DNA from: Aureimonas populi
GTDB taxonomy: Bacteria; Pseudomonadota; Alphaproteobacteria; Rhizobiales; Rhizobiaceae
Reading direction: 5' to 3'
NCBI RefSeq assembly: GCF_017815515.1
Contig: NZ_CP072611.1
Span: 186,001-250,000, forward strand
DNA: 64,000 bases
The notes beneath the pieces were generated by a model, which saw only the letters and a program-made list of their open reading frames with translations, had not been told where the DNA came from and searched no databases. Below are positions 1,527-16,493 of this stretch, piece after piece; position 1 is the stretch's first letter, and each line of letters starts with the position of its first letter. A program made the position numbers and the translations under genes.

Positions 1527-2318
1527 ATGAGCGAAGCGAAATCCGCCCTTGCACCGCGTCACCGGAGCATCCTTCGTATCCTGGAAGCCGACGGCGAGGC
1601 GGCCGTGGCGCGACTGGCCGGGGAACTCGGCGTCTCGGAGGTCACGATCCGCTCGGACCTTTCGGATCTGGAGGCGCGCAGACTGCTGCGACGCGTCCGC
1701 GGCGGCGCGAGAATCGCACGCCCTGCGCGCTTCGAACCCCCGCAGGAGGTGTCGATCGAGACCTTCGCGAACGAGAAGGAGCGGATCGGCCTTGCGGCGG
1801 CGGCGATGATCAAGTCCGGCGATACCATCATCCTCGACAGCGGCACCACGACACTCGCCCTCGCACGCGCTCTGCCGAAGACGTTGCATGACGTTGTCGC
1901 CGTCACGAACAGCATCGACATCGCCATCGCGCTCGACCCCCACTCCGGCGTTGACGTCTTCGTGACGGGAGGACGGATGCGCACCAGTTCACGCAATTCC
2001 ACACGCACGATGGTGGCGCCGATGGGCACGCTGCTTCTTGAAAAGATCAGCGCCGACATCGCCTTCCTCTGCTGCGCCGGGATCGACGCGCGACGCGGCT
2101 TCACCAACGCCAATATCGAGGAAACCGAGATGAAGCAGGCGATGATGGCCGCCGCCCGCCGGACGGTCATGCTCGCCGACGGCAGCAAGCTTGGCCATAT
2201 CGGAGTGGTTCGGATCGCGCGTCTGGCGGAAGTGTCTGCCCTCATCACCGATGCAAGCGTCAGTGGCGCACCCCTGGAGGCGCTTCAGGAGGCCGGGCTC
2301 GATGTCGTGATCGCATAA
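1527..2318 (+). CDS. DeoR/GlpR-family transcriptional regulator
   Basis: The protein has 263 residues. An N-terminal DeoR winged helix-turn-helix occupies about residues 10-62 (RHRSILRILEADGEAAV and SEVTIRSDLSDLE). The DeoRC sugar-phosphate sensor domain follows, with DSGTTTLALARAL (about 109-121) and the VTNSIDIA and GIDARRGFTNAN motifs. The ATG at 1527 is chosen because the family starts 5-15 residues before the helix-turn-helix; an upstream extension to 1323 would run through the divergent promoter. Such regulators usually repress and are released by a phosphorylated sugar, which fits control of the divergent kinase/isomerase pair. A shared motif also ahead of 2468 suggests control of the ABC operon too. 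Confidence 0.85.
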   Translation: MSEAKSALAPRHRSILRILEADGEAAVARLAGELGVSEVTIRSDLSDLEARRLLRRVRGGARIARPARFEPPQEVSIETFANEKERIGLAAAAMIKSGDTIILDSGTTTLALARALPKTLHDVVAVTNSIDIAIALDPHSGVDVFVTGGRMRTSSRNSTRTMVAPMGTLLLEKISADIAFLCCAGIDARRGFTNANIEETEMKQAMMAAARRTVMLADGSKLGHIGVVRIARLAEVSALITDASVSGAPLEALQEAGLDVVIA

Positions 2319-2467: not shown

Positions 2468-3505
2468 ATGGACATCACACGCAGAACCGTTCTCGGCGGA
2501 ATGGCCGCTACAGGGGCGCTTTCCATGCCCTTCGTCGCCAGGGCGCAGGCGCGCGAGCTCGTCATGATCGGCTACGGAACGGTTCAGGACCAGCCGCTCA
2601 TCCGCGCCGGAGAGGAGCTGGCGCGGCGCCATCCGGGCGTTTCCCTGCGCGTCATCGGCGGCCTCTCCTCCGAGGCGCTGGCGCAGATCAAGGCGACACA
2701 GGGCAATTCGCCCTATCATCTGGCCGTGATGGGCTCGCCCGCGATCCTCAACGCTCTCGATGAGGACGTTCTGGAGCCTCTCGATCTTGATCTCATTCCC
2801 AACGCGGCGAACATCATTCCCGCCTTTCTTCCCTTCGGTTACGACGTCGGGGTGCCGGTCAGCTATGACGGCATCGGCATCGCCTACAACACCGAGACGG
2901 TGGAAACGCCCCCGCAGACCTGGGCCGACCTGTGGAAGCCCGAATATGCCGGGCGCATCGGAATGCCTCGTCCCAGCTCCAATCTGGGACTGGCGGCCGT
3001 GGCGGTCGCAGCGCAGATTCACGGCGGCTCGCAGGACGCCATGCAGGTCGGCCTCGAGAAATGGCACGAACTCGATCCGCTGGTGGGCCGCAGCCCTCCC
3101 CTCCTGCAGCAGATGCTGGAGCGGGGCGAGATCGACCTGTGCGTGCTCTGGCACCAGAACACGGCGATTGCCGCCAGCACCGGGCTTCCCTTCGCCTACG
3201 CCAAGGCCCGCGAGCCGGGGCCTCTGATGCTGCCCACCAACATCGTGCAGTTCGTCAACAACGGGCACAGCGAGCTCGTCCACGAGTTTGCGGACATCCT
3301 CCTGACTCCGGAGAGCCAGGCGTTCTCGGCCGCGGCGCCCTTCTTCTTCGGACCCGTGGTCGAGGGCGTGGAATCGCCGCCCGAAGCCGCTCCCTTTGTG
3401 CCCGACGCTCAGGAGCTGGGGCAACTCCAGTCGCTCGATTGGCCGACCCTCGCGCCCTTGCGAGCGCGAATGGTCGAGGATTTCGATCGCATGTTCGGCA
3501 TGTAA
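2468..3505 (+). CDS. ABC transporter periplasmic binding protein (polyamine/opine type)
   Basis: This 345-residue family-1 extracellular binding protein resembles PotD/SfuA-type proteins. The N-terminus MDITRRTVLGGMAATGAL has a twin-arginine signal (TRRTVLGG) with a likely cleavage after FVARAQA near residue 28. Characteristic segments are SYDGIGIAYNTE (about 134-145), ETPPQTWADLWKPEYAGRIG (about 147-166) and a late PTNIVQFVNNGHS. It heads a run of overlapping genes (ATPase, two permeases, deacetylase-like enzyme), so it supplies substrate specificity to that importer. The ligand is unknown. The enzymes encoded downstream suggest a small nitrogenous, perhaps cyclic amide compound rather than spermidine. 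Confidence 0.85.
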   Translation: MDITRRTVLGGMAATGALSMPFVARAQARELVMIGYGTVQDQPLIRAGEELARRHPGVSLRVIGGLSSEALAQIKATQGNSPYHLAVMGSPAILNALDEDVLEPLDLDLIPNAANIIPAFLPFGYDVGVPVSYDGIGIAYNTETVETPPQTWADLWKPEYAGRIGMPRPSSNLGLAAVAVAAQIHGGSQDAMQVGLEKWHELDPLVGRSPPLLQQMLERGEIDLCVLWHQNTAIAASTGLPFAYAKAREPGPLMLPTNIVQFVNNGHSELVHEFADILLTPESQAFSAAAPFFFGPVVEGVESPPEAAPFVPDAQELGQLQSLDWPTLAPLRARMVEDFDRMFGM

Positions 3506-3510
3506 GGCTG

Positions 3511-4587
3511 ATGGCTTTCGGCAAAGACGGCGGCCGGGTAGGGCGCGCGGTTCTGGAGATCGAGAACGTCTCCAAGATCTTCGGCGCCCTGACGGTCCTG
3601 GACAGATGCTCCCTCTCGGTATCGGAGGGGGAGATCCTGACGCTTCTGGGGCCATCAGGATGCGGAAAGACCACGCTCCTGCGGTGCATCGCCGGCTTCG
3701 CCGCCCCGGACAAGGGCCGCATCCTGATCGACGAGCGCGACACCGTTCCCATGCCGGTCAACCGGCGGCCCGTGGGCGTGGTGTTCCAGAGCTATGCCCT
3801 GTTCCCCCACCTGACCGTGGCCGGCAATGTCGGATACGGCCTTCGCATGCGCGGGACGGACAGGGCCGGGATTGACCGCCGTGTGGCGGCGGCATTGCAG
3901 ATCGTCTCGCTCGACAGCCTTGCCGGCCGCTATCCGGCGCATCTGTCCGGCGGGCAGCAGCAGCGCGTGGCCGTGGCGCGGGTTCTCGTCCTCGAACCGC
4001 GCATCCTGCTTCTGGACGAGCCGTTCAGTGCGCTGGACGCCAAGCTTCGCACCTCCATGCAGATGGAATTGCGCGAACTCATCAAGCGCCTCGGCATGAC
4101 CGCGATCTTCGTGACCCACGATCAGGAGGAGGCGCTGACGCTGAGCGACCGGATCGCGGTGATGCGCCGGGGCCGGATCGAACAGGTCGACACCCCGCAG
4201 GAGGTCTACGACCATCCCGCCAACGAATATGTCGCCGACTTCGTCGGGGCCTCGAACATCCTTGACCTCGAAGCGCGCGACGGCCGCGTCGTGCTGCCGG
4301 ACGGCCAGTGCGTGCCGAGCAAGCGGGAGGGAGCCGTGCGCGTCATGGTGCGCCCTCACAATATCGCACTGGGCGCGACCCCGGAGGCCGGCGGATGGCA
4401 GGGCACCATCCGCCACAGCCGGCATGTCGGGTCGGTCACGGAATATGCGGTCGCCAGTTTCGGCGGCGGCGAGTTGCGGGTCGTATCCATGCGCATCGGA
4501 GCGGCCGCAGGGCTGAGCGAGGGCAGCGCGGTGAGCCTGCGCGTCATCGACCCCGCCTTTTGTCCCATCTACGGAGCCGGAGAATGA
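3511..4587 (+). CDS. ABC transporter ATPase (PotA-type)
   Basis: The 358-residue ATP-binding subunit of the importer has Walker A GPSGCGKTT (47-55), a Q-loop in VVFQSYALFPHL, signature LSGGQQQR (about 145-152), Walker B ILLLDEPFSALD and the H-loop in FVTHDQEEAL. The C-terminal 120 residues form a TOBE/OB domain (VRPHNIALG), as in PotA, MalK and FbpC. The ATG at 3511 lies 5 bases after the binding-protein stop. The stop overlaps the next start (ATGA at 4584-4587), so translation is coupled. It energises import through the two permeases that follow. Confidence 0.92.
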   Translation: MAFGKDGGRVGRAVLEIENVSKIFGALTVLDRCSLSVSEGEILTLLGPSGCGKTTLLRCIAGFAAPDKGRILIDERDTVPMPVNRRPVGVVFQSYALFPHLTVAGNVGYGLRMRGTDRAGIDRRVAAALQIVSLDSLAGRYPAHLSGGQQQRVAVARVLVLEPRILLLDEPFSALDAKLRTSMQMELRELIKRLGMTAIFVTHDQEEALTLSDRIAVMRRGRIEQVDTPQEVYDHPANEYVADFVGASNILDLEARDGRVVLPDGQCVPSKREGAVRVMVRPHNIALGATPEAGGWQGTIRHSRHVGSVTEYAVASFGGGELRVVSMRIGAAAGLSEGSAVSLRVIDPAFCPIYGAGE

Positions 4588-5519
4588 ACGTCTCGGCCTC
4601 GTCCTTCCCTCTGCCCACGCCGCGAAGCCGATGGGGCTCGATTCTCGACAAGCTCCTCTCGGGCCAGGGGCTCTGGCCGGCGGTGCCCGCCATCGTCGTC
4701 CTGATCGTCGTGGCGGTGATCCCGTTCTTCCTGCTCCTTTCCCTGGGCTTCGCCGACTTCCGCGTCGCGCAGGGGCGGATCGTGGAGCGCAGCTTCTCCC
4801 TCGGCTTCGTGACCTCGGCCCTTGCGGACCCGCTGTACCACGTCACGTTCCAGCGCTCGCTGACGCTCGCTTTGTCGACCATGACGCTCTGCGTGGTCCT
4901 CGGCTACCCCGTGGCCTATCTCTATCTCACCGGCGGCCCACGCATCCGCAAGCTGATCCTCTTCCTCACCATCGTCCCGCTTTTGACGAGCGGCATCGTG
5001 CGGACCTATGCCTGGATGGTCATCCTCGGCGCGCGCGGTATCGTCAACACGGCCCTCCTGTCGCTCGGCGTCATCGACCGCCCCTTGCGGATCATGAACA
5101 CTCATTGGGCGGTGCTGATCGGCATGGTGCAGATCCATCTGCCGGTGATGATCCTGCCGCTGATCGCCGTGATGAGCCGCTACGACCGGTATCTCGACGA
5201 GGCCTCCGAGAATCTCGGCGCGAGCAAGCTGGCCACCCTGTGGCACGTGATCCTGCCACTGAGCGTTCCCGCCATCGGCGCCGGCGCGGGCCTCGTCTTC
5301 GTTTTGAGCTACACGACCTTCGTGGTGCCGCAGCTCCTGGGAGGCGGCAACTACCTCAATGCGGCGACGATGATCTACGAGCAGGTCGTCTATTCGCTGG
5401 AGTGGAACAGGGCAGCGGTTTCCGCGCTGCTTCTCATGCTGTCGTGCCTCGTGGTGTTGAGCACGATCGCCATCCTCACCAACCTGTTCTGCCGCTGGAC
5501 GAGGGAGGCGCAGCGATGA
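4584..5519 (+). CDS. ABC transporter permease (PotB-type)
   Basis: The protein has 311 residues and about six membrane helices. The first is near residues 36-56 (GLWPAVPAIVVLIVVAVIPF). The BPD_transp_1 coupling motif EASENLGASKLATLWHVILP lies at about 212-231 and contacts the ATPase. PotB-like membrane segments PVAYLYLTGG and LTSGIVRTYAWMVILG are present. It overlaps both the ATPase stop (ATGA) and the following permease start, so the four transporter genes are one transcription unit. Inner-membrane half-channel of the 2468-6331 importer. Confidence 0.9.
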   Translation: MNVSASSFPLPTPRSRWGSILDKLLSGQGLWPAVPAIVVLIVVAVIPFFLLLSLGFADFRVAQGRIVERSFSLGFVTSALADPLYHVTFQRSLTLALSTMTLCVVLGYPVAYLYLTGGPRIRKLILFLTIVPLLTSGIVRTYAWMVILGARGIVNTALLSLGVIDRPLRIMNTHWAVLIGMVQIHLPVMILPLIAVMSRYDRYLDEASENLGASKLATLWHVILPLSVPAIGAGAGLVFVLSYTTFVVPQLLGGGNYLNAATMIYEQVVYSLEWNRAAVSALLLMLSCLVVLSTIAILTNLFCRWTREAQR

Positions 5520-6331
5520 GACGGTTCGCGAACAACGCCGGCGCGGACCTGCTCGGGCGCGGGATCATCTACGCCCTCGCCGTCTTCTCGCTTCTGATCC
5601 TTTTGCTGCCGGCCGTGATCGTGGTGATGATCTCGTTCGACACGCGCAGCTTCGTGAGCTTTCCGCCGCAGGGCTTCACGCTGGACTGGTATCGGCAGGT
5701 CTTCCAGCAGGATGCGCTGGTCGACGGGATGGTGGTCAGCCTTCGGGTCGGCCTCACGGTGACGGGGCTCTGCATTCTTCTCGGCGTTCCGACCGCTCTC
5801 GTTTGCGCGCGCGGGCAATTCCGGGGCGTGGGCGCCCTCTCCCTCTTCATTCTTGTGCCGCATATGGTGCCGGGCATCGTCCTCGGCGTCGCGGTGCTGT
5901 TTGCGGGAGCGGATATGGGCATCGGCCCCTCCGTGTGGCTGCAATCCATCGCCATCACCGCGTTCGTCATGGCCGTCATGGTTCGCACCGTGACGAGCCG
6001 CCTCCAGAGGCTCGATCCCAAGCTGGAGGAAGCGGCCGCCAATCTGGGGGCGACGCCCTGGCAGGCGCTGCGCACGGTCACCTTTCCGCTGCTCCTGCCG
6101 GCCGTCCTCGCCGGCTCGGTCTTCACCTTCGTGGAAGGCTTCGACAACGTCTCGGTCGCGATCTTCACCCACGGCTTTCGCGATCGCCCTCTTCCGGTCG
6201 AACTGATCGCGCTGGTATCGACCACGAACACGCCGCTCGTGGCGGCCGTATCCGGTGTGCAGATCCTGCTCGCGCTTCTGGCGCTGCTCGCGATCTCCCG
6301 CACCATCGGGCTCGACCGGGTCAATGGCTGA
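5516..6331 (+). CDS. ABC transporter permease (PotC-type)
   Basis: The 271-residue inner-membrane subunit has six predicted helices, the first at about residues 16-38 (IIYALAVFSLLILLLPAVIV). The periplasmic SFPPQGFTLDWYRQVF segment is typical of PotC/YdcV-type permeases, and the coupling motif LEEAAANLGATPWQALRTV lies at about 173-191. The start overlaps the preceding stop (ATGA). Its own stop lies 8 bases inside the downstream deacetylase-like gene, tying that enzyme to the importer at the translational level. Confidence 0.9.
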   Translation: MRRFANNAGADLLGRGIIYALAVFSLLILLLPAVIVVMISFDTRSFVSFPPQGFTLDWYRQVFQQDALVDGMVVSLRVGLTVTGLCILLGVPTALVCARGQFRGVGALSLFILVPHMVPGIVLGVAVLFAGADMGIGPSVWLQSIAITAFVMAVMVRTVTSRLQRLDPKLEEAAANLGATPWQALRTVTFPLLLPAVLAGSVFTFVEGFDNVSVAIFTHGFRDRPLPVELIALVSTTNTPLVAAVSGVQILLALLALLAISRTIGLDRVNG

Positions 6332-7217
6332 GCGCGACCTTCTCGGCTACGGCGGCGAATGGCCGGAGATCGTCTGGCCCAACGGCGCGCGCCTTGCCGT
6401 CTCCCTCGTGGTGAACTTCGAGGAGGGTGCCGAGGAGCAGGCGGGCGATGGCGACGCGCACTCCGAGCGCATCGGCGAGGTGATCTCGGTGGTGGATCCG
6501 GGACGCCGCGATCGCGGACAGGAGCAGATCTTCGCCTATGGGCTGCGCGCCGGCCTGTGGCGCACGGCCGACGCGCTCGAGCGCGCCGCCCTGCCCGCCA
6601 CGATCTTCTTCTGCGGCCGGGCGGCGGAGCGCTCGCCGCGACTTGCCCGCATGCTGGTGGAACGCGGGCACGAGGCGGCCTGCCACGGCTGGCGCTGGCG
6701 CCCCCATGCTGACTACGACGACGGGGCACGGGAGGCCGCCGATCTCGACCGCGCGAGCGCGGCCATCGAGGCGGCGACCGGAGAAAGGCCGCTCGGCTTT
6801 TTCTGCCGGGGCGCCGAAAGCGCCTGGACGCGGCGCCTTCTCGCCGAGCGCGGCTATCTCTACACTGCCAACGGATTCGACGACGACCTTCCCTATCGCG
6901 ATGCCGGGACCGGACTGCTCGTGATTCCCTACGCGCTCGACACCAACGACATGAAGTTCTTCCATCCGAACGGCTTCGTACGCGCGGTCGAGATGGTGGA
7001 CTATGTGCGCGATGCGCTGGACGTGCTCGAAGCGGAAGCGGCCCGAGGCCATGCGCGCCTTCTCAACATCGGCTTTCATCTGCGCATCATCGGCCGGCCA
7101 GGGCGCTTCAAGGCGTTTCAGGCCATTCTCGACGAGCTGACGCGCCGACGCGACCGGCTGTGGATCGCCCGACGCATCGACATCGCCCGCGCTTTCGCAA
7201 GGGCTGTGCCGTGCTAG
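6324..7217 (+). CDS. PuuE-like polysaccharide-deacetylase-fold protein (allantoinase type)
   Basis: The protein has 297 residues. Instead of the metal-binding TFDDG motif of true polysaccharide deacetylases it has VNFEEGAE (about 31-38), and the second motif is CHGWRW (about 119-124). These are hallmarks of the cofactor-independent allantoinase PuuE subfamily, which hydrolyses a cyclic ureide without metal. RLLAERGYLYTANGFDDDLPY and LNIGFHLRIIGRPGR are further conserved blocks. It overlaps the permease gene by 8 bases, so it probably acts on the imported compound. A second PuuE-like paralogue lies at 14306. Allantoin itself is not proven; a related lactam or ureide is as likely. Confidence 0.8.
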   Translation: MAERDLLGYGGEWPEIVWPNGARLAVSLVVNFEEGAEEQAGDGDAHSERIGEVISVVDPGRRDRGQEQIFAYGLRAGLWRTADALERAALPATIFFCGRAAERSPRLARMLVERGHEAACHGWRWRPHADYDDGAREAADLDRASAAIEAATGERPLGFFCRGAESAWTRRLLAERGYLYTANGFDDDLPYRDAGTGLLVIPYALDTNDMKFFHPNGFVRAVEMVDYVRDALDVLEAEAARGHARLLNIGFHLRIIGRPGRFKAFQAILDELTRRRDRLWIARRIDIARAFARAVPC

Positions 7218-7248
7218 GGCCGATGGCGCACACCTGCCGGACAGTTCC

Positions 7249-8784
7249 ATGAACACTGTTCTCGTCGAGGCCGATCACATCCTTCTCGGTTTTGCCGCCG
7301 ACGGCGAGCCCGATATTCGCCCGGACGCCGCGCTGCTCGTCGAGGACGGCACGGTGCGCGAGGTCGGCGAGCGACGCGCGATGCTACGGGAGCACCGGGA
7401 GATTCCGCACCTCGGCGGCCGGGGCAAGGTCGTCATTCCAGGCCTCGTCAACGCGCATCACCATGTCGGGCTCACACCCTTTCAGCTCGGCTCTGCCGAT
7501 CACCCGCTGGAATTATGGTTCGCCAGCCGCCTCGCCCTGCGCGACGTCCCTCCGCGCCTCGACACGCTCTACTCGGCGTTCGAGATGGTGGCCTCGGGCG
7601 TCACCACCGTGCAGCATCTTCACTCCCGCGCACCGGGCGACGGCGATGCCGTGCTGCGAACGGCGGGCGCGGTGCTCGACGCCTATCGCGAGATCGGCAT
7701 GCGCGCCTCCTACTCCTTCGCGCTCCGCGACCAGAACCGGCTGGTCTACGAGGCCGACGAGGCGTTTCTCCAGCGGCTCCCGGCCGGGCTTCGCCCGGCG
7801 ATGGCAGCCTATTTCGCCCGTTTCGCCCTGCCGCTGGGTGAGCAGGTGGCGGTCTTCCACGAACTTTACCGACGCACGAGGGACGAGGAGCGTATCGCGG
7901 TGCAGATCGCGCCCTCGAACCTTCACTGGCTTTCCGACGCCGCTCTCGCCAGTGCCGCCCAGATGGCCGACGAGACGGGCGCGCCGATGCACATGCACCT
8001 TCTGGAGACGCCCTACCAGCGCGCTTACGCGGAAAAGCGCACCGGCGGCTCGGCCTTGGAATACATCCACAGCCTCGGCCTTGCAGGACCGGGGCTCACC
8101 ATCGGCCACGGCGTCTGGATGAGCGAGGCCGATATCGAGCTCTGCGCACATACCGGCACCCGCATCTGCCACAACTGCTCGTCCAACTTCCGGCTGAAGA
8201 GCGGCATCGCCCCGGTCAACCGCTTCATGGCCGAGGGCATTCCCGTCGCGCTCGGCATCGACGAGGCGGGCATCAACGACGATCGCGACATGCTCCAGGA
8301 AATGCGCCTGGCGCTGCATGTTCATCGCGAGCCGGGGATCGAAAGTCCTGCCCCGACGCCGGCGCAGATCCTGCAAATGGCCACCGAGCATGGAGCGGGC
8401 ACGACGCCGTTCGGCCGGCGGATCGGGCATCTGTCCCCCGGCGCGGCGGCTGACCTCGTGCTTCTCGACTGGGAGCGCGTGACCTACCCCTATCAGAATC
8501 CCGACATCGCCCTCGCGGACATTCTCGTCCACCGCGCCCGACGCGAATGCGTCGAGACGGTGATGGTGGCGGGCGAGGTGATCTACCGCGACGGCCTCTT
8601 TACGCGCGTGGACCGCGGCGCGACGCTGGAGGAGATCGCGCGGACGATGGGACGACCCGACACGGCCGAGGAGGAGGAACGACGCAGCCTCGCACGGGCC
8701 GTCCTTCCGCACGTGCGGACCTTCTACGAGGGATATCTCGACGCGCCCTTCCCGCCCCCGCACACCCGCCCCAACGCGCGCTGA
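7249..8784 (+). CDS. Amidohydrolase/cytosine-deaminase-like metal-dependent hydrolase
   Basis: The protein has 511 residues and belongs to the amidohydrolase superfamily of the AtzB/TrzN/SsnA/8-oxoguanine deaminase kind. The HxH metal site is in PGLVNAHHHVG (about 64-74). Further ligands are MHMHLLET (about 247-254), GHGVWM (about 286-291) and the Asp in GIDEAGINDDRD (about 342-353). The C-terminal GRRIGHLSPGAAADLVLLDW segment returns to the small beta domain. It starts 31 bases after the PuuE-like gene on the same strand and is last in that operon. It likely removes an amino group or opens an amide on a nitrogen heterocycle, using Zn or Fe; the precise substrate is unknown. Confidence 0.82.
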   Translation: MNTVLVEADHILLGFAADGEPDIRPDAALLVEDGTVREVGERRAMLREHREIPHLGGRGKVVIPGLVNAHHHVGLTPFQLGSADHPLELWFASRLALRDVPPRLDTLYSAFEMVASGVTTVQHLHSRAPGDGDAVLRTAGAVLDAYREIGMRASYSFALRDQNRLVYEADEAFLQRLPAGLRPAMAAYFARFALPLGEQVAVFHELYRRTRDEERIAVQIAPSNLHWLSDAALASAAQMADETGAPMHMHLLETPYQRAYAEKRTGGSALEYIHSLGLAGPGLTIGHGVWMSEADIELCAHTGTRICHNCSSNFRLKSGIAPVNRFMAEGIPVALGIDEAGINDDRDMLQEMRLALHVHREPGIESPAPTPAQILQMATEHGAGTTPFGRRIGHLSPGAAADLVLLDWERVTYPYQNPDIALADILVHRARRECVETVMVAGEVIYRDGLFTRVDRGATLEEIARTMGRPDTAEEEERRSLARAVLPHVRTFYEGYLDAPFPPPHTRPNAR

Positions 8785-8796
8785 AGGGCGTCGGCG

Positions 8797-9546
8797 TCAG
8801 GCGTCCGTGCCCGAGATCCTTGCCGTCAGCTTCGGAGCCAGCCCGGTGGCGGGCTTCGGCGAAGGGCGGGCGAACGCTCCGGCCCGCGCCGGCGCCGTGC
8901 CGAGGCGCACCAGCGTCTCGGCCTGAAGCAGCGCCGCCGCCGCCTGCTCCACCAGCGGCACGCAAACATCGCCGGCGATCCGGGCGGCCAGCCCGGCAAG
9001 CGGCGCCCCGCCCAGGATCACGACATCCGCGCCGTCGTCCTCCACCGTTCGCCTGCAGAGCGTCGCGAGGGCTTCCTCCTTCTCGCTCGCGACCGTGTCG
9101 ATGGCGCTGAAACGCCCGTCGCCGGAGCGGATCGCGGCGAGGCGATGGCCCATGCCGCTCGCCTCCACGCAATCGCGATACCAGCTTCCCAAGGCCGGCG
9201 CGAAGGTGACGATGGAGAAGCGCGGCCCCAGCATCGCGGCGGTGAGCATCGCTGCCTCCGCCATGCCGACGATCGGCTGGTCGAACAATTCTCGCGCGGC
9301 CGCAAGCCCCGGATCGCCGAAGGCCGCGATGATCGCCGCGTCGTGCCCGGGCAGATGCTCGGCCAGCATCTCCAGAACGAGGGCGCCTGCGATCTGCGCC
9401 TCCGCGCGCCCCGAGATGTAGGGAACGCCGCGCGGCGCGGTGAGCGCGGTGATGGAAGTGCCGGGCGCGGCGGCCTGCGCGGCCACCGTCTCGAGGCGCT
9501 GCGTGACACTGGCCGAGGTGTTGGGATTGAGGAGCAGAATTCTCAC
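8797..9546 (-). CDS. Hydantoin/Asp-Glu racemase-like protein without the catalytic cysteines
   Basis: The 249-residue protein has the Asp/Glu/hydantoin-racemase fold: LLLNPNTSASVTQRL at the N-terminus, IIAAFGDPGLAA (72-83), PIVGMAEAAM (91-100) and VVILGGAPLAG (175-185). Known hydantoin and allantoin racemases place one catalytic Cys in each of the second and last blocks; here those positions are Ala75 and Gly180. It may be an isomerase with other chemistry, a decarboxylase/maleate-isomerase relative, or inactive. It lies 13 bases downstream of a permease gene of the leftward ABC operon. A paralogue at 15265 shows the same loss. Confidence 0.8.
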   Translation of the reverse strand: MRILLLNPNTSASVTQRLETVAAQAAAPGTSITALTAPRGVPYISGRAEAQIAGALVLEMLAEHLPGHDAAIIAAFGDPGLAAARELFDQPIVGMAEAAMLTAAMLGPRFSIVTFAPALGSWYRDCVEASGMGHRLAAIRSGDGRFSAIDTVASEKEEALATLCRRTVEDDGADVVILGGAPLAGLAARIAGDVCVPLVEQAAAALLQAETLVRLGTAPARAGAFARPSPKPATGLAPKLTARISGTDA

Positions 9547-9559
9547 CGGGCCTGCCTCG

Positions 9560-10360
9560 TCAGAACTGCGCCATGCGGCGGATGCCGACCAGCCGGTCGC
9601 CGATGATCATGGCGAGGGTGGCCAGGAGAATGAGGCCCGTGGAGATCGCCGCGATGGTGGGATCGGGACGCTCCTCGACGAATTGGAGCATCTGGATCGG
9701 CAGGGTCTTCGTCCAGGCATCCGAGAAGAAGATCGAGATCGGATAATTGTCCATCGAGGCGAGGAAAGCGAACATGCCGGACGTCAGGAAGGCCGGGGCG
9801 AGATTGGGCACCAGCACCTTGCGGACGGCCGCTGGATAGGAGCAGCCGAGCGTTCGCGCCGCATCGATCAAGGTGTAATCGAAGAGCGAAAGTGCGCCGA
9901 TCACCGTGCGCGCCACGTATGGGAGCGTGATCACCACATGGGCCAGCAGAAGGCTCGTCCATGCATCGCGCAGGCCCAGTTCGCGGAAGAACTGCAAAAG
10001 CGCGATGCCGATGACCAGCGCCGGCAGCATCAGGGGCGAGATCAGGAAGGAGATGATCCCTTCCGAACCCGGCACACGGCCCCGCGTCAGGGCGATGGCG
10101 CACATCGTGCCCAGAACGAGCGCGATGGCGGTGGAGAGCGTTGCGATCTGGAGCGACGTGAAGAGGGCGGGGGCAAGACCGCGCAGCGTCGCCAGGCGCT
10201 CGTACCAGCGCGTGGACCATTCGGGCGGCGGCAGGGTGAAGACCGGCGAGGAACCGAAGGAGGCAGCGACCGTCACCACCAGCGGCGTCAGGAGGAACAC
10301 GACCGCGAAGGCGGCGACGAGAAGGATAAGAGCGTTGCACGCCCGTTCGATCAGGGTCAT
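9560..10360 (-). CDS. ABC transporter permease (PotC-type), second importer
   Basis: The 266-residue membrane subunit has a first helix at about residues 9-31 (ALILLVAAFAVVFLLTPLVV). The periplasmic loop TLPPPEWSTRWYERL is of PotC type, and the coupling motif IDAARTLGCSYPAAVRKVLV lies at about 166-185. The ATG at 10360 overlaps the stop of the upstream permease (ATGA), so the two are co-translated. It pairs with the 10357-11199 permease to form the channel of the second importer in this locus. Confidence 0.9.
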   Translation of the reverse strand: MTLIERACNALILLVAAFAVVFLLTPLVVTVAASFGSSPVFTLPPPEWSTRWYERLATLRGLAPALFTSLQIATLSTAIALVLGTMCAIALTRGRVPGSEGIISFLISPLMLPALVIGIALLQFFRELGLRDAWTSLLLAHVVITLPYVARTVIGALSLFDYTLIDAARTLGCSYPAAVRKVLVPNLAPAFLTSGMFAFLASMDNYPISIFFSDAWTKTLPIQMLQFVEERPDPTIAAISTGLILLATLAMIIGDRLVGIRRMAQF

Positions 10361-11199
10361 CGAACGCCTCCGAACCGGCGGGCGAGCGCACTTGCCGACA
10401 GGATGATCGCCACCGAGAGGACAAGAAGGACGACCGCGGTCGTGGAGCCCAGCTGCTCGTCGCGCAGGAACAGGAAGGAGCGGCCCGTGAGCGTCGCCAG
10501 CGTCTGGAAACGGTCGCCGATCAGAAGGCTCGGGATCACGTACATCGAAACGGACATGGAGAAGACGAAGGCGCAGCCCGCGATGATGCCGGGCAGTGTC
10601 AGGGGAAGCGTGACGCGGGTGAAGCGGTAGACGGGCGAGGCGCCGAGCGTGGCGGCCGCCTCCGGCAGGCGCGGGTCCATGAGATTGAGCACCGAATAGA
10701 TGGGAAGGATCATGAAGGGCAGGAAGACGTTCGCCGCCCCGAGAACGAGGCCGAACTCGGTGAAGAGCAGGCGCGGTGCTTCCTCGAAGAGGCCGGTGGC
10801 GACGAGAAACTGGCCCACCACGCCTCCCCTCCCCAGGACGATCTGCCACGCGAAGGCCTTCACCACGATGCCGACCGAGAGCGGCAGGATGATGCTGACG
10901 AGGAGCACGATCTGCAACGCGCCCCGCGCCCTTGAGAGCGCGATGGCCGCCGGATAGCCGATCAGGAAGGCGCACAGGGTGACGAGCGAGGCGATGCGCA
11001 GCGTGTTGCCGATCACCTGCCAGGTGAAGCCGTCCCCCAGCAGCGCCGCATAGGGCTGGAGCGAAAGGCCGGCCTGCCCGATGAAGCTGCGGCCGAGAAG
11101 GAAGCTCAGCGGCACGAGATAGAAGACGGTGAGGTACAGAAGCGCCGGGGCGAGCAGGAGCACGGCCGGATTGGCGGCGAAGCGGCGGGCGACGCTCAT
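10357..11199 (-). CDS. ABC transporter permease (PotB-type), second importer
   Basis: The protein has 280 residues and six predicted helices. The first is at about residues 13-35 (LLLAPALLYLTVFYLVPLSF). The coupling motif PEAAATLGASPVYRFTRVTL lies at about 184-203, preceded by FLPFMILPIYSVLNLMDPRL. The start overlaps the ATPase stop (11196-11199), continuing the chain of coupled genes. Its closest functional counterpart here is the permease at 4584; the two importers are related but not near-identical copies. Confidence 0.9.
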   Translation of the reverse strand: MSVARRFAANPAVLLLAPALLYLTVFYLVPLSFLLGRSFIGQAGLSLQPYAALLGDGFTWQVIGNTLRIASLVTLCAFLIGYPAAIALSRARGALQIVLLVSIILPLSVGIVVKAFAWQIVLGRGGVVGQFLVATGLFEEAPRLLFTEFGLVLGAANVFLPFMILPIYSVLNLMDPRLPEAAATLGASPVYRFTRVTLPLTLPGIIAGCAFVFSMSVSMYVIPSLLIGDRFQTLATLTGRSFLFLRDEQLGSTTAVVLLVLSVAIILSASALARRFGGVR

Positions 11200-12287
11200 G
11201 CCGCCCTGCCTTCGCGCGGATAGACCAGCGTGTCGGAGACTGCGAAGGACAGGTCCATTTCCTCGCCCTTGCGCGCGCCCTCCGGCACGTCGAGCGTTTC
11301 GACAAGGATACGCTCGTCCCCTTCGGCGGCGAAGTGGAGCTGCGCCTTCGCCCCTTGGAAGATCACGTCCGCCAGCCGTGCGCGAAGGCGGTTCTCGCCG
11401 CCCGAGCCCGGCGTGACACGCTCGGGCCGCACGCCGAGCGTCACGGGCGAGCCGGGCAGGAAGGAGGCCGGCGCGCGCACCGTTCCAAAACGGGTCTCGA
11501 TCAGGGCCACCTCGCCTTCCATCCCCCGCACCGTGCCCTCGAGGCGTGTGGAAAGACCGACGAAATCCAGCGTGAAGGGTGTCGCGGGCCGGCGATAGAT
11601 GGCCTCCGGTGCATCAAGGTGCTCGATGCGCCCGGCATTCATCACCGCGATGCGGTCGGACATGACGAGCGCCTCGTCCTGATCGTGCGTGACGAAGATC
11701 GCCGTGGTGCCGACATCGCGCAGGATGCGCCGCAATTCGATCTGCATCGTCTCGCGCAGCTTGCGGTCGAGTGCCGAGAAGGGCTCGTCGAGGAGCATGA
11801 GCTTGGGACCGGTGGCGAGAGCGCGCGCCACCGCGACGCGCTGCTGCTGGCCGCCGGACAATCCCCGCACGGAGCGATCCGCCATGGCGCCCAGCCCGAC
11901 GAGGGAGAGAAGGCGCTTCACGGCCTCCTCGATCTCGGCGCGCGGCGCTCTCTTCGCCTTCAGGCCGAAGCCGATATTCTCGGCAACGGTCAGATGCGGA
12001 AACAGGGCGTAGTTCTGGAACACCACGCCGACATCCCGCTTGTGCGGCGGCACGCGCGTGATCTCCTGCCCGTCGAGGCGGATCCTTCCGGCATCCGGCG
12101 CCAGCAATCCCGCCACGATGCGAAGAAGGGTCGTCTTGCCACAGCCCGAGGGGCCGAGGAGCGAGATGAACTCGCCCCTCCCGATACCAAGATCGACCCC
12201 CTCGAGAACGGTGACGGTTCCGAAAACCTTGCCCGCACCCGCGATGTCGAGAAACGGACCTGTGCCGGCTGCTTGCATCTGCACCAT
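11196..12287 (-). CDS. ABC transporter ATPase (PotA-type), second importer
   Basis: The 363-residue subunit has Walker A GPSGCGKTT (45-53), Q-loop VVFQNYALFPHLT, signature LSGGQQQR, Walker B LMLLDEPFSALD and H-loop IFVTHDQDEAL. A C-terminal TOBE region with GVRPERVT follows. It starts 3 bases after the stop of the upstream binding-protein gene and overlaps the permease start. It hydrolyses ATP at the inner face of the membrane for the second importer. It shares the general layout of the 3511 ATPase but differs across the length, so a recent tandem duplication is unlikely. Confidence 0.92.
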   Translation of the reverse strand: MVQMQAAGTGPFLDIAGAGKVFGTVTVLEGVDLGIGRGEFISLLGPSGCGKTTLLRIVAGLLAPDAGRIRLDGQEITRVPPHKRDVGVVFQNYALFPHLTVAENIGFGLKAKRAPRAEIEEAVKRLLSLVGLGAMADRSVRGLSGGQQQRVAVARALATGPKLMLLDEPFSALDRKLRETMQIELRRILRDVGTTAIFVTHDQDEALVMSDRIAVMNAGRIEHLDAPEAIYRRPATPFTLDFVGLSTRLEGTVRGMEGEVALIETRFGTVRAPASFLPGSPVTLGVRPERVTPGSGGENRLRARLADVIFQGAKAQLHFAAEGDERILVETLDVPEGARKGEEMDLSFAVSDTLVYPREGRAA

Positions 12288-12290
12288 CGA

Positions 12291-13340
12291 TCAGATCGCC
12301 ATCTCGCGGTCCCAGCGCTGGACCCAGTCGGCGCGGTTGTTTGCGACATTGGCCCAGTCCACCGACAGGACCTCGATGTTCTCGGGCAGGTCGGACGGCG
12401 TCGCGGCCTCCACATTCGTGGGAAGGGAGAAGGTGGGCGCGGTGAGCTGGTTCTGGAGCTCCACACTCAGAAGCTCGTTCACATAGGCCATGGCAAGATC
12501 CTGGTTCGGGCCGCCGCGCACCACGCAGACGCCGGACGGCGCGGCGAAGGCGCCCTCGCGCGGCACGGCCAGATTGACCGGCGACCCCTCCGCCCGGCGC
12601 GGCATGGTGAAGGAGGACAGCGCGCCCGCGATCGCCCAGGCTTCCCCCGTCTCCAGGAGATTGAAGGCCTGCGGCATCTGCGTGTAGATCGTCAGGAGAT
12701 TGGGCTTGAGGGCCTGCATCTTCCGGAAACCGGCTTCGATATCGTACTGCGCCTCCGCCACCGGCTTACCGGTTTCCAGCGCGGCCGCCATGAAGAGCGG
12801 GAAGACCCCCTCGGTGTTCTGCAACGACGGAATGACAACGCGGCCCGCCATGGAATCGTCCCAGAGCTCTTCCCAGGACTCGATGCCGTTCGGCAAAGCC
12901 TCCTCATTGTAGGCGATGGCCTGGAAGGGCTGGAGGTAATTGACCCACGCCCCGTCCAGATGGACCGCCCCGTCCTTCAGTTTCGCCATGTTGGGCACGG
13001 TCTCGGCGCTGAGCGGCTCCAGAAGCCCGGCCTCATGCGCGAGGATCATCACCGGATCGTCCATCTGGACGACGGAGAGATATTGCTGCGCCTGGTTCTG
13101 CTGCATCTTCTCGAGGTTCACCAGGGAGCGGGTGCCCTCATAAAGGATGCGCGCGTCGTACTTGGCCTCGAAATTCGGGATCACGATGGTCTCGACCCAT
13201 TCGCGATGGCTGGCGGCACCGCCCACCACCAGTTCGCGCGTCTGGGCGCGCAGGATGGAAGGCATGGCAAGCGTTCCAGCCGCCGCGGCAGAGCCGGCGA
13301 GGAATTGGCGGCGATTGGGCATGATGATGGTTTTCGTCAT
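12291..13340 (-). CDS. ABC transporter periplasmic binding protein, second importer
   Basis: The 349-residue family-1 binding protein starts at the ATG at 13340 (MTKTIIMPNRRQFLAGSAAA). MPNRRQFLAG at 13322 is an alternative start and would place the twin-arginine motif (NRRQFLAG) at the usual position. Cleavage is likely after ILRAQT near residue 34. Segments such as AYNEEALPNGIESWEELWDD (about 141-160) and PTNVEAATPSDLPENIEVL near the end are typical of polyamine/iron-type binding proteins. It heads the leftward operon binding protein-ATPase-permease-permease-racemase-like. It is divergent from the GntR regulator, with a palindrome in the gap. Ligand unknown. Confidence 0.85.
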   Translation of the reverse strand: MTKTIIMPNRRQFLAGSAAAAGTLAMPSILRAQTRELVVGGAASHREWVETIVIPNFEAKYDARILYEGTRSLVNLEKMQQNQAQQYLSVVQMDDPVMILAHEAGLLEPLSAETVPNMAKLKDGAVHLDGAWVNYLQPFQAIAYNEEALPNGIESWEELWDDSMAGRVVIPSLQNTEGVFPLFMAAALETGKPVAEAQYDIEAGFRKMQALKPNLLTIYTQMPQAFNLLETGEAWAIAGALSSFTMPRRAEGSPVNLAVPREGAFAAPSGVCVVRGGPNQDLAMAYVNELLSVELQNQLTAPTFSLPTNVEAATPSDLPENIEVLSVDWANVANNRADWVQRWDREMAI

Positions 13341-13460
13341 GGTTGCGGGCTCCGGTTGCAGGCGTTCGGTGGACACATTTGCAAGCCGCGTGCCAACTCC
13401 CAAAACCCTTTGCCAGAAGGGCTTTCCGCTCAAGCGACGAGCCCTTGGAGAAGAAAATGA

Positions 13461-13489
13461 GCACAAAAAATACGGATTGTGCACAAAAA
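13461..13489. promoter_or_regulatory. Candidate GntR operator (TTGTGCACAA plus a repeated half)
   Basis: In the AT-rich divergent gap 13341-13563 there is a perfect 10-base palindrome TTGTGCACAA at 13477-13486. The 9-mer GCACAAAAA occurs twice, at 13461-13469 and 13481-13489, exactly 20 bases apart. This is a typical layout for dimer binding on one face of DNA. The neighbouring GntR protein is the natural candidate ligand. Confidence 0.5.
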
Positions 13490-13563
13490 GACTCCACCCA
13501 TCGTCTGGCTCCCGGATTGATGCGCCGCCTATAATCGGCGCAGGGACACGAAGACGCAGGCCG

Positions 13564-14322
13564 ATGGAAGAAGCACAGGTCCACCAAATCCTGACGCGGG
13601 TTCTCGCATCCGGGATCGCCGCGCCCGGTTCCAAGCTCGGCGAGCAGCATCTGGCCGATATTTTCTCTATTTCACGCGACCGGATGCGCCGTGTGCTTCA
13701 GCGGCTCGGCTACGAGGGCAAGCTTGAACTTGTGCCCAATCGGGGCGCACGCACCATCGACCCCGGGCTAGCGGACGCCCGCATCGTCTATGATGCCCGG
13801 CGTGTCCTCGAAGGGGGTATCGCGCTGAGCCTTGCCGAGCGCATCACCACGCCCGAGATCGATGCGCTCTTCGCCCATCAGGACGCGGAGCGCGACGCCA
13901 TCGCCGAGGGCCATCCGGAACGCGCTCTTGAGCTTGGCGGAGCGTTGCACATGCGCCTTGCCGAACTCATCGACAATCCGGTTCTGGTCGGGACGCTGAG
14001 GACTTTGGTGGACCGCACCTCGACGCTGCTCCTCTTCTTCGGCCCCAGCGACGGCCCGGCGTGTTCCTGCCGTGAGCATCGCGGCATCGTCGAGGCGCTC
14101 TCGACGCGTGAGCCGATGCGCGCGCGCGAGGCGATGTGTTCCCACCTCTCCCAGGTGGAAACGCGCCTTCGCACGCGTCCGCGCTGCGAGGCCATCGACA
14201 TCGAGACGTTGGTGAGGACGGAGATCCGGCGCTCGGGCGCGGCCGCGCCGGCGAAAGGCTTACCCGCCGCCGCTCCGCGTTCGCAGCGCCGAAAGGGAGG
14301 CGCAAGTGAACACGTCGCCTGA
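13564..14322 (+). CDS. GntR/FadR-family (FCD) transcriptional regulator
   Basis: The protein has 252 residues. The N-terminal winged helix-turn-helix (about 8-65) reads GSKLGEQHLADIFSISRDRM then LVPNRGARTI. An all-helical FCD ligand domain follows to about residue 215, with AHQDAERDA, HMRLAELIDNPVLVGTL and EHRGIVEAL (His residues that bind metal or ligand in this class). The ATG at 13564 is chosen because it places the helix-turn-helix at the normal distance. The coding end overlaps the next gene by 17 bases. It is divergent from the second importer and co-directional with the PuuE-like and racemase-like genes, so it probably controls both arms. Confidence 0.85.
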   Translation: MEEAQVHQILTRVLASGIAAPGSKLGEQHLADIFSISRDRMRRVLQRLGYEGKLELVPNRGARTIDPGLADARIVYDARRVLEGGIALSLAERITTPEIDALFAHQDAERDAIAEGHPERALELGGALHMRLAELIDNPVLVGTLRTLVDRTSTLLLFFGPSDGPACSCREHRGIVEALSTREPMRAREAMCSHLSQVETRLRTRPRCEAIDIETLVRTEIRRSGAAAPAKGLPAAAPRSQRRKGGASEHVA

Positions 14323-15268
14323 GAGTCCCTCCCCCGTGACGCACCGCGACTTCGCGGGCTACCGAGGTGCAACGCCCTCGATCCGCTGGCCGGAAGGCGC
14401 GCGTGTCGCCGTTTCCATCGTGGTGAACGTAGAGGAGGGCGCCGAGTTGTCCCTCTCCATGGGCGACGAGCGCAACGAGAGCATCTACGAGGCTGTCGAG
14501 TCCGTCGACGGCGCGCCCGACCTTTGCATGGAAAGCCATTTCGAATACGGCACGCGCGCCGGCTGGCCCCGCATCCGCAAGGCGCTGGCCGAGCGAGGCG
14601 TGAAAGCGACGTTGAACGCCAACGGGCGCGCGCTCGCCCTCTCGCCCTGGATCGCCGAGGAAGCGGTGGCGGACGGCCACGAGATCGCCGCGCATGGCTG
14701 GCGCTGGGAGCGCCATGTGCATATGAGCGAAAAGGAGGAGCGCCTCGCCATCGCCCGGGCGGTGGCGGCCATAGAAGCGGCGGGTGGAAGCGCCCCCATA
14801 GGCTGGCACACGCGCTCGGCCACATCGGTTCGCACGCGCGACCTTCTCGCAGAGCATGGCGGGTTTCTGTACGATTCCAACGCCTATAACGACGATCTGC
14901 CCTATCTGGTGGAGGTCGGCGGCCACGAGCATGTCGTGCTCCCCTACGCTTTCGACACCAACGACATGCGTTTCCTGAACGGCGGTGGTTTCGTGTTCGC
15001 GGAGGATTTCTCCCGCTACTGCATCGAGGCCTTCGAGCGCCTCCATGCGGAAGGCGCCGAAGCGCCGCGGATGATGTCGGTGGGCCTGCATCTGCGCATC
15101 ATCGGTCGTCCGGCGCGCCTGCGGGGGCTGGAGCTCTTTCTCGACCATGCGCTGAAGCGCGGAGGCGTCTGGTTCGCACGGCGCGACGAGATCGCCCATC
15201 ACTGGCGCGACGGACTTGGCCTGCCGCGATGGCGGCCACGCCCTGTCCCGGAGGGTTTCGCGCGATGA
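14306..15268 (+). CDS. PuuE-like polysaccharide-deacetylase-fold protein, second copy
   Basis: The 320-residue protein starts at GTG 14306, preceded by a good ribosome site (AAAGGGAGG). It has VNVEEGAE in place of the metal motif and AHGWRW as the second motif. FEYGTRAGWPRIRKALAERG, TRDLLAEHGGFLYDSNAYND and MSVGLHLRIIGRPARL are hallmark blocks of the PuuE allantoinase subfamily. It is closer to classical PuuE than the copy at 6324, which has diverged around the WHTRS/FCRGA segment. It overlaps the GntR gene and the racemase-like gene (ATGA at 15265). Inferred: metal-free ring hydrolysis of the imported compound. Confidence 0.82.
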   Translation: MNTSPESPSPVTHRDFAGYRGATPSIRWPEGARVAVSIVVNVEEGAELSLSMGDERNESIYEAVESVDGAPDLCMESHFEYGTRAGWPRIRKALAERGVKATLNANGRALALSPWIAEEAVADGHEIAAHGWRWERHVHMSEKEERLAIARAVAAIEAAGGSAPIGWHTRSATSVRTRDLLAEHGGFLYDSNAYNDDLPYLVEVGGHEHVVLPYAFDTNDMRFLNGGGFVFAEDFSRYCIEAFERLHAEGAEAPRMMSVGLHLRIIGRPARLRGLELFLDHALKRGGVWFARRDEIAHHWRDGLGLPRWRPRPVPEGFAR

Positions 15269-15939
15269 CCCGCCTCGTTCTCGTCAACCCGAACACCAGC
15301 CAGGCTTCCACGGATGCGATGGTGGCGATCGGACGCCAGACCGGGGAACGCGATCTTTCGATCGAAGGCGTGACCGCCCCCTTCGGCGCGCCACTAATCA
15401 CCGACGAAGACGCCCTGGACGAGGCCGCGCGCGCGGTCTTGTCGCTCGCTCCAAGGCTGCGCCGCACTCCATGCGATGGCGTGATCGTCGCCGCCTTCGG
15501 CGATCCGGGTCTCTCGCGCCTGCGTGACATTCTTGACGTTCCTGTAACGGGCATTGCGGAGGCCGGCATGGCGGCGGCGGCGGCTGGAGGCCGGCGCTTC
15601 GCGGTGGTCACGACGACGCCGGGCCTGATCGGTGTCATCGAAAAGGCTGCCTCGCGATACGGTCATGCGGCGCTGTTCGCCGGCACGTTCCTCACCGAAG
15701 GCGATCCCGTCGCGCTCATGGCCGAACCGTACGCGCTCGTGAATGCGCTGGAGGCGGCCTGCAAGGCCGCCATCCGGCAAGGCGACGCGCAGGCCATCGT
15801 GATCGGCGGGGGACCGCTTGCACCCGCCGCCCGTGCTCTTGCCCCGACGCTCGGCGTGGCTTTGATCGAACCCGTGCCCGCCGCCATACGCTTCGCTGCG
15901 CTACGCACCGCCAAGGCGCAACCGCAAGGACACGCTTAG
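15265..15939 (+). CDS. Hydantoin/Asp-Glu racemase-like protein, second copy, no catalytic cysteines
   Basis: The 224-residue protein starts at the ATG at 15265, inside the preceding stop (ATGA), with LVLVNPNTSQASTDAM. Blocks are VIVAAFGDPGLSRL (about 73-86), VPVTGIAEAGMA (92-103) and AIVIGGGPLAP (177-187). The two family cysteines are replaced by Ala77 and Gly182, as in the paralogue at 8797. It forms a translationally coupled pair with a PuuE-like enzyme. In purine catabolism such pairs can be allantoin racemase plus allantoinase, but with the cysteines missing, cysteine two-base racemisation is not expected. Confidence 0.8.
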   Translation: MTRLVLVNPNTSQASTDAMVAIGRQTGERDLSIEGVTAPFGAPLITDEDALDEAARAVLSLAPRLRRTPCDGVIVAAFGDPGLSRLRDILDVPVTGIAEAGMAAAAAGGRRFAVVTTTPGLIGVIEKAASRYGHAALFAGTFLTEGDPVALMAEPYALVNALEAACKAAIRQGDAQAIVIGGGPLAPAARALAPTLGVALIEPVPAAIRFAALRTAKAQPQGHA

Positions 15940-16493
15940 CGGCAACAGCCTGCCCGCCCAGTTCGCCAGGTTGCTGATGGCTTATATCCCCCAGGAAGGA
16001 CAACGGGTCGGTCGCCAGGGGCTCACCGAATGGAACAGCACGGGTGCTGCCACAGAGCGCAAACCCAAAAGCGAACCGATCACCGCAGGCCTCGACCCAC
16101 GCTCCAAAACCATCGAAATCCCAAGCCTTCACCGTTGTGCTCGCCTTTACCTCGATCCCGACGAGATTGCCGATCCATCGAGCGGAGCCACATCGACACC
16201 CGGCGGCACGATCTCGTCGACCCCATCCCGCAATTCATCGTTAAGCGTGACCTCGGCGCCGGCGAGCCGGCCGTCAAGTTGCCCCACGGTGCGCGGATCG
16301 AATGCTCGCCGTGGTAAGCGCGGGATGCGATATCACGAAGGCGAGCGACGGTGATGCCGGGAAGGCGCGCCGGGTGGTGACATTGCTCATCGATAGCCTG
16401 GCTTCCGGCGGGCCCGCCGTCTGAGGCAGGAGAGCAGCAAAGCGACTGCGCAAACGATCGCCGAGCGATCTTGGACAGGAAATGGAGGCCATG
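15940..16493. other. 554-base gap with a decayed gene
   Basis: No intact gene is visible between the racemase-like gene and the flavin reductase-like gene. The base composition is less GC-rich than the flanks. The right half holds an aldo/keto reductase remnant on the minus strand (separate entry). In 15940-16146 I see nothing recognisable, no insertion-sequence ends and no tRNA. Confidence 0.6.
16147..16375 (-). pseudogene. Aldo/keto reductase C-terminal remnant with a frameshift
   Basis: Leftward reading gives SLAFVISHPALTTASI (about 16350-16300) in one frame. It then continues in another frame as DPRTVGQLDGRLAGAEVTL and DELRDGVDEIVPPGVDVAP, ending in TAA at 16147-16149. In intact aldo/keto reductases the same blocks follow one another (AFVIxHPAVTSxIIGPRT, then QLDxxL and DEIVPPG). 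The junction needs a one-base change near 16300-16303. Nothing recognisable as the N-terminal three quarters of the enzyme lies upstream (to the right), where the flavin reductase-like gene begins. So this is a truncated, frameshifted relic. Confidence 0.55.

Follow-up and report, generated by a model that had tools for sequence, protein, structure and literature searches.

A candidate catabolic island for sugar-conjugated cyclic ureides in Aureimonas populi

Genes of the island

In this work, we analyzed a group of genes at the left end of a 64,000-nucleotide stretch of the Aureimonas populi genome (hereafter the window: bases 186001-250000 of its single 3,822,311-base contig, NZ_CP072611.1). 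Two importers lie there together with two relatives of the metal-free allantoinase PuuE (PuuE1 and PuuE2), two racemase-fold proteins devoid of the catalytic cysteines (Rac1 and Rac2), an amidohydrolase (AmH) and, at the very edge, sugar-handling genes. Tentatively, and with an expectation that comes close to even without reaching it, we read this island, with the SIS, PfkB and BtpA genes that adjoin it to the left, as a single system for breaking down a cyclic ureide or imide conjugated to a sugar (N-glycosylated), apart from ordinary allantoin use. Of all clues to the substrate, we give the sugar-handling genes at the left window edge the most weight.

A BtpA-family gene (L014:6413-7237) lies outside the window, past a PfkB-family sugar kinase gene of which only the start falls inside (1-288, minus strand; whole gene L014:7255-8289, genome 185254-186288; Pfam PfkB 102.3 bits). 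Next comes the gene of a SIS-domain protein similar to sugar-phosphate isomerases and deglycases (299-1417, minus strand; Pfam SIS), whose nearest solved structure is the isomerase domain of GlmS. These three genes sit immediately left of importer 1, and a DeoR-family regulator gene (1527-2318, plus strand, start from the gene caller; Pfam DeoRC and HTH_DeoR on 1524-2318) is transcribed away from the SIS gene and precedes importer 1. The plus strand then carries importer 1, made up of a substrate-binding protein (SBP1, 2468-3505; Pfam SBP_bac_8/6, with PotD-like chains in the PDB), an ATPase (3511-4587; Pfam ABC_tran, TOBE_2), permease A (4584-5519) and permease B (5516-6331; Pfam BPD_transp_1 in both), followed by PuuE1 (6324-7217), which overlaps permease B by 8 bases, and AmH (7249-8784; Pfam Amidohydro_1). 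Rac1 (8797-9546; Pfam Asp_Glu_race) and importer 2 are on the minus strand, the latter with permease B (9560-10360), permease A (10357-11199; BPD_transp_1 in both), an ATPase (11196-12287; ABC_tran, TOBE_2) and a second binding protein (SBP2, 12291-13340; SBP_bac_6/8). Back on the plus strand, a GntR/FCD regulator gene (13564-14322; Pfam GntR, FCD) stands upstream of PuuE2 (14306-15268; Pfam Polysacc_deac_1 was found in the PuuE-like proteins) and Rac2 (15265-15939).

Gene calls and Pfam searches agree with the content given in a preliminary description of this DNA (two four-gene polyamine-type importers with PuuE-like, racemase-like, amidohydrolase and GntR genes), all the genes of which were found where it had placed them. 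It had overlooked the SIS gene and the edge-cut kinase gene, which very probably belong to the system. Seven junctions between neighboring genes of the island show overlaps of 4-17 bases, and related gene sets recur in other bacteria; on both grounds, the arrangement is not a matter of chance. Both importers are PotABCD-like, yet all curated PotA, PotB, PotC and PotD cut-offs were missed: the two binding proteins scored 22 and 31.7 bits to PotD (cut-off 582) and the two ATPases 358.5 and 331.3 bits to PotA (cut-off 482). A twin-arginine signal in SBP2 (22.6 bits) falls marginally below its cut-off of 22.7.

Gene company in related loci

Species genomes were scanned with the PuuE1 alignment, giving 254 pattern matches and 181 relatives; the survey uses the best 80 loci of these, with genes predicted by a codon model and then grouped. 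Contig ends truncate many of these loci, and close relatives account for some of them, so that they do not represent independent events. In Aurantimonas and Aureimonas, the nearest relatives (L018-L020), a binding protein, a second SIS, a second PfkB, an ATPase, two permeases, SIS, PfkB, BtpA, PuuE2, PuuE1, Rac2 and AmH follow one another in a co-directional row, with overlapping ends from PfkB onward. Identity to the window proteins is 80-81% for PuuE2, 83-85% for PuuE1 (these being its nearest named relatives), 59-60% for Rac2 and 78-79% for AmH. Overlapping or abutting ends were found in 19 of 21 BtpA-PuuE2 pairs of the 80 loci, 25 of 31 PuuE2-PuuE1 pairs, 22 of 26 PuuE1-Rac2 pairs and 15 of 17 Rac2-AmH pairs.

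The preliminary description had seen two parallel modules in the island. The Aurantimonas and Aureimonas loci speak otherwise, joining both PuuE types, a racemase-like gene and the amidohydrolase through overlapping ends.

PuuE2 is present in 41 of the 80 loci, AmH in 40, Rac2 in 26 and Rac1 in 10. Within the 25 loci that have at least two of SIS, PfkB and BtpA, PuuE2 occurs in 24, AmH in 22, Rac2 in 18 and Rac1 in 3. The two importers differ in their company. SBP1 was found in 23 of these 25 loci and SBP2 in none; the importer 1 family is present in 26 of the 80 loci, 23 of which also carry two or more of the sugar genes, while the nine loci with importer 2 are devoid of SIS, PfkB and BtpA altogether. 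In these nine, PuuE2 is accompanied either by PuuE1, Rac1 or Rac2 and AmH, or by an amidase and a dihydropyrimidinase. Island versions with two binding proteins, two SIS genes, two PfkB genes and BtpA were also found at L105, L149 and L150, with no PuuE gene in the stretch fetched.

In order to escape the selection for PuuE1, BtpA was used as an anchor in two sets, one of 397 genomes from the order and one of 289 from the class. There were eight matches in the order and two in the class, the own genome being included in each, which leaves eight other genomes (seven plus one). In seven of these, belonging to four genera, AmH (58-66% identity) lies within 10 kb of BtpA; in the exception (G835), the BtpA match is weak (36%) and its contig 6 kb long. 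One of the eight (G725) is apparently the same record as one of the 80 loci (L023) and is thus not independent of them. At the level of the phylum, 15 BtpA matches above the cut-off, the own one included, came from 14 of 299 genomes, several of one genus; at least 12 of the 15 have a sugar kinase gene within 1.5 kb on either side, namely eight PfkB, assigned with our own profile (four of the eight tested with Pfam), and four FGGY, assigned with Pfam.

The predicted enzymes

PuuE1 and PuuE2, which share 45% identity, scored 271.3 and 300.6 bits to the PuuE model TIGR03212, well short of its curated cut-off of 424.6. A quick tree (midpoint root, no bootstrap) of 145 rows, comprising 142 of the 147 members of the PuuE cluster (those labelled and of 250-420 amino acids) and three proteins of this genome, contained three long-stemmed clades, with 78 PuuE1, 40 PuuE2 and 27 true-PuuE-like rows; the genome's own true PuuE occupies a long branch. 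Residues N31, E33, E34, H121, G122, W125, H252 and R254 are conserved at 90% or more in each clade, and a stricter pattern with Arg or Lys at 124 matches only 35 of the 78 PuuE1 rows. With the metal-free allantoinase (structures 3cl6-8), the window proteins share the fold, the N-x-E-E-G and H-G-W-x-W motifs and the H252/R254 region; they differ from it in their scores, in forming two separate clades with fixed residues of their own, and in their gene company. Because the core residues of PuuE are kept, PuuE1 and PuuE2 very probably hydrolyze a cyclic amide without a metal, the substrate being one unlike or beyond allantoin.

A single PuuE above the family cut-off (527.9-529.5 bits) is encoded outside the window. 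It is fused to UraD and followed by genes for allantoicase and ureidoglycolate lyase (L013, genome 3606255-3609189; Pfam scores of 150.7 bits for OHCU decarboxylase, 300 for allantoicase and 204.4 for ureidoglycolate lyase), and xanthine dehydrogenase genes are divergent from it. This search took in PuuE, UraD, allantoicase and ureidoglycolate lyase. The rest of the allantoin route is thus missing from the window, as had been noticed before, but it is present elsewhere in the genome, and the argument for a new substrate built on its absence fails. An uncharacterized cyclic amide or ureide pathway apart from ordinary allantoin use, also proposed in the preliminary description, is nevertheless likely, given the low scores of both PuuE-like proteins and the full-score PuuE elsewhere. 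PuuE1 and PuuE2 are additional paralogues beside the genomic allantoin route.

True-PuuE-like genes occur in 26 of the 80 loci, usually with an importer of their own and in some cases beside a ureidoglycolate lyase or 5-hydroxyisourate (HIU) hydrolase gene. Such neighbors suggest, without proving it, that the ring is purine-derived or allantoin-like; any specific substrate that might be named is improbable. Directly 3' of a third PuuE-like gene, an NHL-repeat protein of 282-284 amino acids is encoded at L051:10917-11765 (minus strand) and at 13 other loci, and in five further loci a gene of the PF04115 ureidoglycolate lyase family takes its place; the NHL-repeat protein is possibly an analogous ureidoglycolate lyase. 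Near PuuE1-AmH in another locus (L078:12872-14461, minus strand), a SMP-30/gluconolactonase domain is fused to an isochorismatase-type hydrolase, and the fusion gene adjoins a small gene grouped with HIU hydrolases.

Rac1 and Rac2 scored 154.4 and 141.9 bits to PF01177 (cut-off 31), the fold family of the HpxA/KpAllR-type racemases (3qvj, 3qvk, 5lfd); Rac1 reached 137.1 bits to 3qvk and 112.8 to 5lfd. In KpAllR, catalysis depends on Cys79 and Cys184, which are reported to be conserved throughout the superfamily (PMC12661438). In the alignment, the two catalytic Cys columns hold Ala and Gly in both Rac1 and Rac2. The same residues were found in all 26 Rac2 proteins of the loci and in nine of 10 Rac1 proteins; in the remaining Rac1 protein, the first column falls in a gap. 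A search for Rac1 homologues, in which 8,000 candidates were scored, gave 5,390 at E ≤0.001, and Ala and Gly likewise replace the two cysteines in all of the best 120, many of which carry the source name "allantoin racemase." Owing to these replacements, a two-cysteine mechanism is excluded, on the aligned residues, for Rac1, Rac2 and the listed homologues, and with it the HpxA-type racemase that had been proposed earlier. There are six other PF01177 matches in the genome, and the three strongest, which were the ones aligned, retain both cysteines (L015:8260-8988, L016:7754-9897 and L017:7310-8056). The L016 protein adjoins a dihydropyrimidinase-like amidohydrolase and a carbon-nitrogen hydrolase, as in an ordinary-looking hydantoin route. 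Rac2-like proteins (53%) were also seen on plasmid records of Chelatococcus and Palleronia, where the stretch shown contains different importers and lacks a PuuE gene.

AmH is a metal-dependent amidohydrolase or deaminase of the 8-oxoguanine deaminase/TRZ-ATZ type. Residues H70 and H72 are conserved in 40 of 41 aligned sequences (one gap), and H250, E253, H287 and D338 in all 41; we take these to be the metal-site residues, which AmH would then have in common with 8-oxoguanine deaminase, 5'-deoxyadenosine deaminase and TRZ-ATZ amidohydrolases. Unlike members of this group, AmH misses all curated cut-offs shown (194 vs. 522 bits at best).

On the sugar side, E259, H274 and H275 of the SIS protein are conserved in all 26 aligned sequences and presumably correspond to the catalytic Glu and His of GlmS, to which they were likened by eye. 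The BtpA protein matches the BtpA/SgcQ family at 88.5 bits (PF03437, cut-off 30) and, like other members, has sugar kinases as neighbors, but differs in falling below TIGR00259 (91.9 vs. 153.4 bits). At position 115, with 24 rows aligned, Lys is present in all 20 rows of the island type, with a SIS gene seen in 19 (the remaining one, L080, is cut by the contig), and Asn in the four rows from plasmid settings in which no SIS gene is annotated. The predicted structure of BtpA (predicted local distance difference test, pLDDT, 87.9) is a TIM barrel like several phosphosugar enzymes. A role of BtpA as a TrpF/HisA-like Amadori isomerase was considered: in a Foldseek search with this model, a PriA-type isomerase and a TrpF appeared at rows 23 and 49, but ThiE, TrpA, RPE and KDPG aldolase rank equal or higher, so that the fold leaves the choice of reaction undecided. 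Annotated genes for a carbohydrate kinase, SIS and BtpA lie beside a BMP-family importer in Mesorhizobium, and in genome G330 (L137:8316-11354, minus strand) genes for a GntR/UTRA regulator, BtpA, a PF04115 ureidoglycolate-lyase-like protein and PfkB stand in a row with 4-base overlaps. As single examples, both rows support a sugar-plus-ureide reading.

A possible route and its rivals

From the gene content and order, we infer the following scheme for the island. Importer 1 would take up the glycoside and importer 2 the free ring, an assignment based on their differing locus settings. The PfkB kinase would phosphorylate the sugar of the glycoside, and BtpA and SIS would isomerize it and release a sugar phosphate. 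AmH, being of the deaminase type, may deaminate the ring, which PuuE2 and PuuE1 would open in successive metal-free steps, and Rac1 and Rac2 may act on an intermediate by a chemistry other than two-cysteine racemization. The reverse order is also conceivable, the ring being opened while still bound to the sugar and the reactions ending in a glycosylurea. A precedent for the breakdown of N-glycosylated urea, likened here by chemistry and not by gene homology, is the URC pyrimidine route of Lachancea, which proceeds via ribosylurea, a reported intermediate of yeast pyrimidine catabolism (PMC7530994); urea residues are also reported to arise in oxidized DNA (PMC8845263). A bolder version, which we hold to be a long shot, is a route for oxidized or damaged purine nucleosides, such as ribosides of iminoallantoin or guanidinohydantoin. 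In this case, PuuE2, PuuE1 and AmH would dismantle the base on the sugar down to a glycosylurea, no nucleosidase or phosphorylase would be needed for PfkB, BtpA and SIS to release the sugar phosphate, and the cysteine-less proteins would represent a new enzyme type.

Alternatively, the island could hold two pathways that run in parallel and independently, one for each of two related compounds (hydantoins, lactams or ureides) and each served by its own importer and PuuE-like hydrolase, the sugar genes being unrelated. Two complete importers and two regulators are in keeping with this, as are a Variovorax PuuE2-like gene (55%) accompanied by an importer, a GntR gene and an annotated Asp/Glu racemase with no PuuE1 nearby, and a Salipiger PuuE2-like gene (59%) accompanied by an amidase, annotated racemases and a dihydropyrimidinase. 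We consider it unlikely in view of the 31 adjacent, co-directional PuuE2-PuuE1 pairs, most of them overlapping or abutting, and of the closest relatives, where both genes run together. Amadori compounds (fructosamines) or N-acyl amino sugars offer another kind of substrate, with the PuuE-like proteins as sugar deacylases and SIS and PfkB as a FrlB/FrlD-like pair of deglycase and kinase. In gene content, fructosamine catabolism by FrlB and FrlD resembles the island in combining an importer with a SIS-type protein and a PfkB-type kinase; it differs in that the island adds BtpA, PuuE and AmH. The matches of SIS and PfkB to the fructoselysine enzymes are weak (36.9 bits vs. the FrlB cut-off of 430, and 37.7 bits vs. 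the FrlD cut-off of 247), and so is the similarity of SBP2 to agropine- and mannopine-binding proteins, both of which are outscored by other chains. Deacetylases have their second metal His four residues past the first, a position at which each of the three PuuE clades has Trp (W125, 90% or more), and a base-deaminase type enzyme such as AmH would be superfluous in such a route, which makes this explanation rather improbable.

A slightly less probable explanation still is additional scavenging of allantoin, with PuuE1 and PuuE2 as ordinary allantoinases served by dedicated importers. The PuuE core (N31, E33, E34, H121, H252 and R254) is indeed kept, and the true-PuuE-like genes of the 26 loci described above would fit. 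However, the scores lie far below the PuuE cut-off, the three clades are deep and long-stemmed, PuuE-UraD, allantoicase and ureidoglycolate lyase are already encoded elsewhere in the genome, and the cysteine-less proteins would be unable to racemize allantoin by the known mechanism.

Several observations weigh against a single system for a sugar-conjugated ureide. Neither a binding protein nor the sugar trio was found in 43 of the 80 loci, partly because of short contigs, and PuuE1 therefore also occurs in other settings. As the loci were selected by PuuE1, the PuuE linkage in the survey is partly a product of selection, and PuuE2-like genes (55-74%) do occur without PuuE1 alongside. Close PuuE1 relatives (at least 68%) were found in just three of the eight BtpA-anchored genomes; since AmH lies near BtpA in seven of them, the firmer core consists of the importer, SIS, PfkB, BtpA and AmH, the PuuE genes being a frequent addition. 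AmH-like proteins (50-54%) are present on six of six plasmid records with no annotated SIS, kinase or BtpA in the stretch shown, the gene tables of which are incomplete. In the present genome, the gene set is divided among at least four same-strand groups, and the window, where a single island holds importer 1, importer 2 and the sugar genes alike, shows that the split between importers is not strict. SIS, the kinase and BtpA reach no curated equivalog cut-off, the BtpA fold search singles out no sugar isomerase, with aldolases and ThiE ranking equally, and deglycosylation would be a guess from fold and gene company. The window's exception to the importer pattern and the occurrence of AmH and PuuE2 relatives in other settings slightly lower our confidence in the system as a whole.

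No published description of a system of this kind was found in the open PMC literature, a search that leaves subscription papers mostly outside. To our knowledge, the bacterial recycling of glycosylated and oxidized bases is poorly known. If the proposed system is real, Alphaproteobacteria and betaproteobacterial metagenome-assembled genomes would have a route linking sugar-phosphate enzymes with cyclic-ureide hydrolases, and one branch of the BtpA/SgcQ family would gain a metabolic setting. Proteins often labelled as allantoin or hydantoin racemases (all of the best 120 examined of 5,390) would then not be racemases of the known type.

Regarding regulation, the perfect palindrome TTGTGCACAA (13477-13486), between the SBP2 and GntR genes, is a candidate GntR operator. 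It has a single exact copy within the window; with one mismatch allowed there are two sites vs. 0.45 expected, a number reached in eight of 100 shuffles, and the second site is inside the GntR gene. The same palindrome precedes three of nine SBP2 genes (L031, L035 and L049, similar Bosea-type loci with a divergent GntR homologue), and one near-match precedes SBP2 in L072. An operator shared by both presumed operons was considered and rejected, since a search of up to 350 bases ahead of each of the 27 SBP1-family genes in the loci yielded no TTGT-N2-ACAA site and the window statistics of the palindrome are weak by themselves. Beyond Rac2, the island is adjoined by genes for a flavin-reductase-like protein (16482-17051) and a pyrroloquinoline quinone (PQQ)-type glucose/alcohol dehydrogenase (17257-19914).

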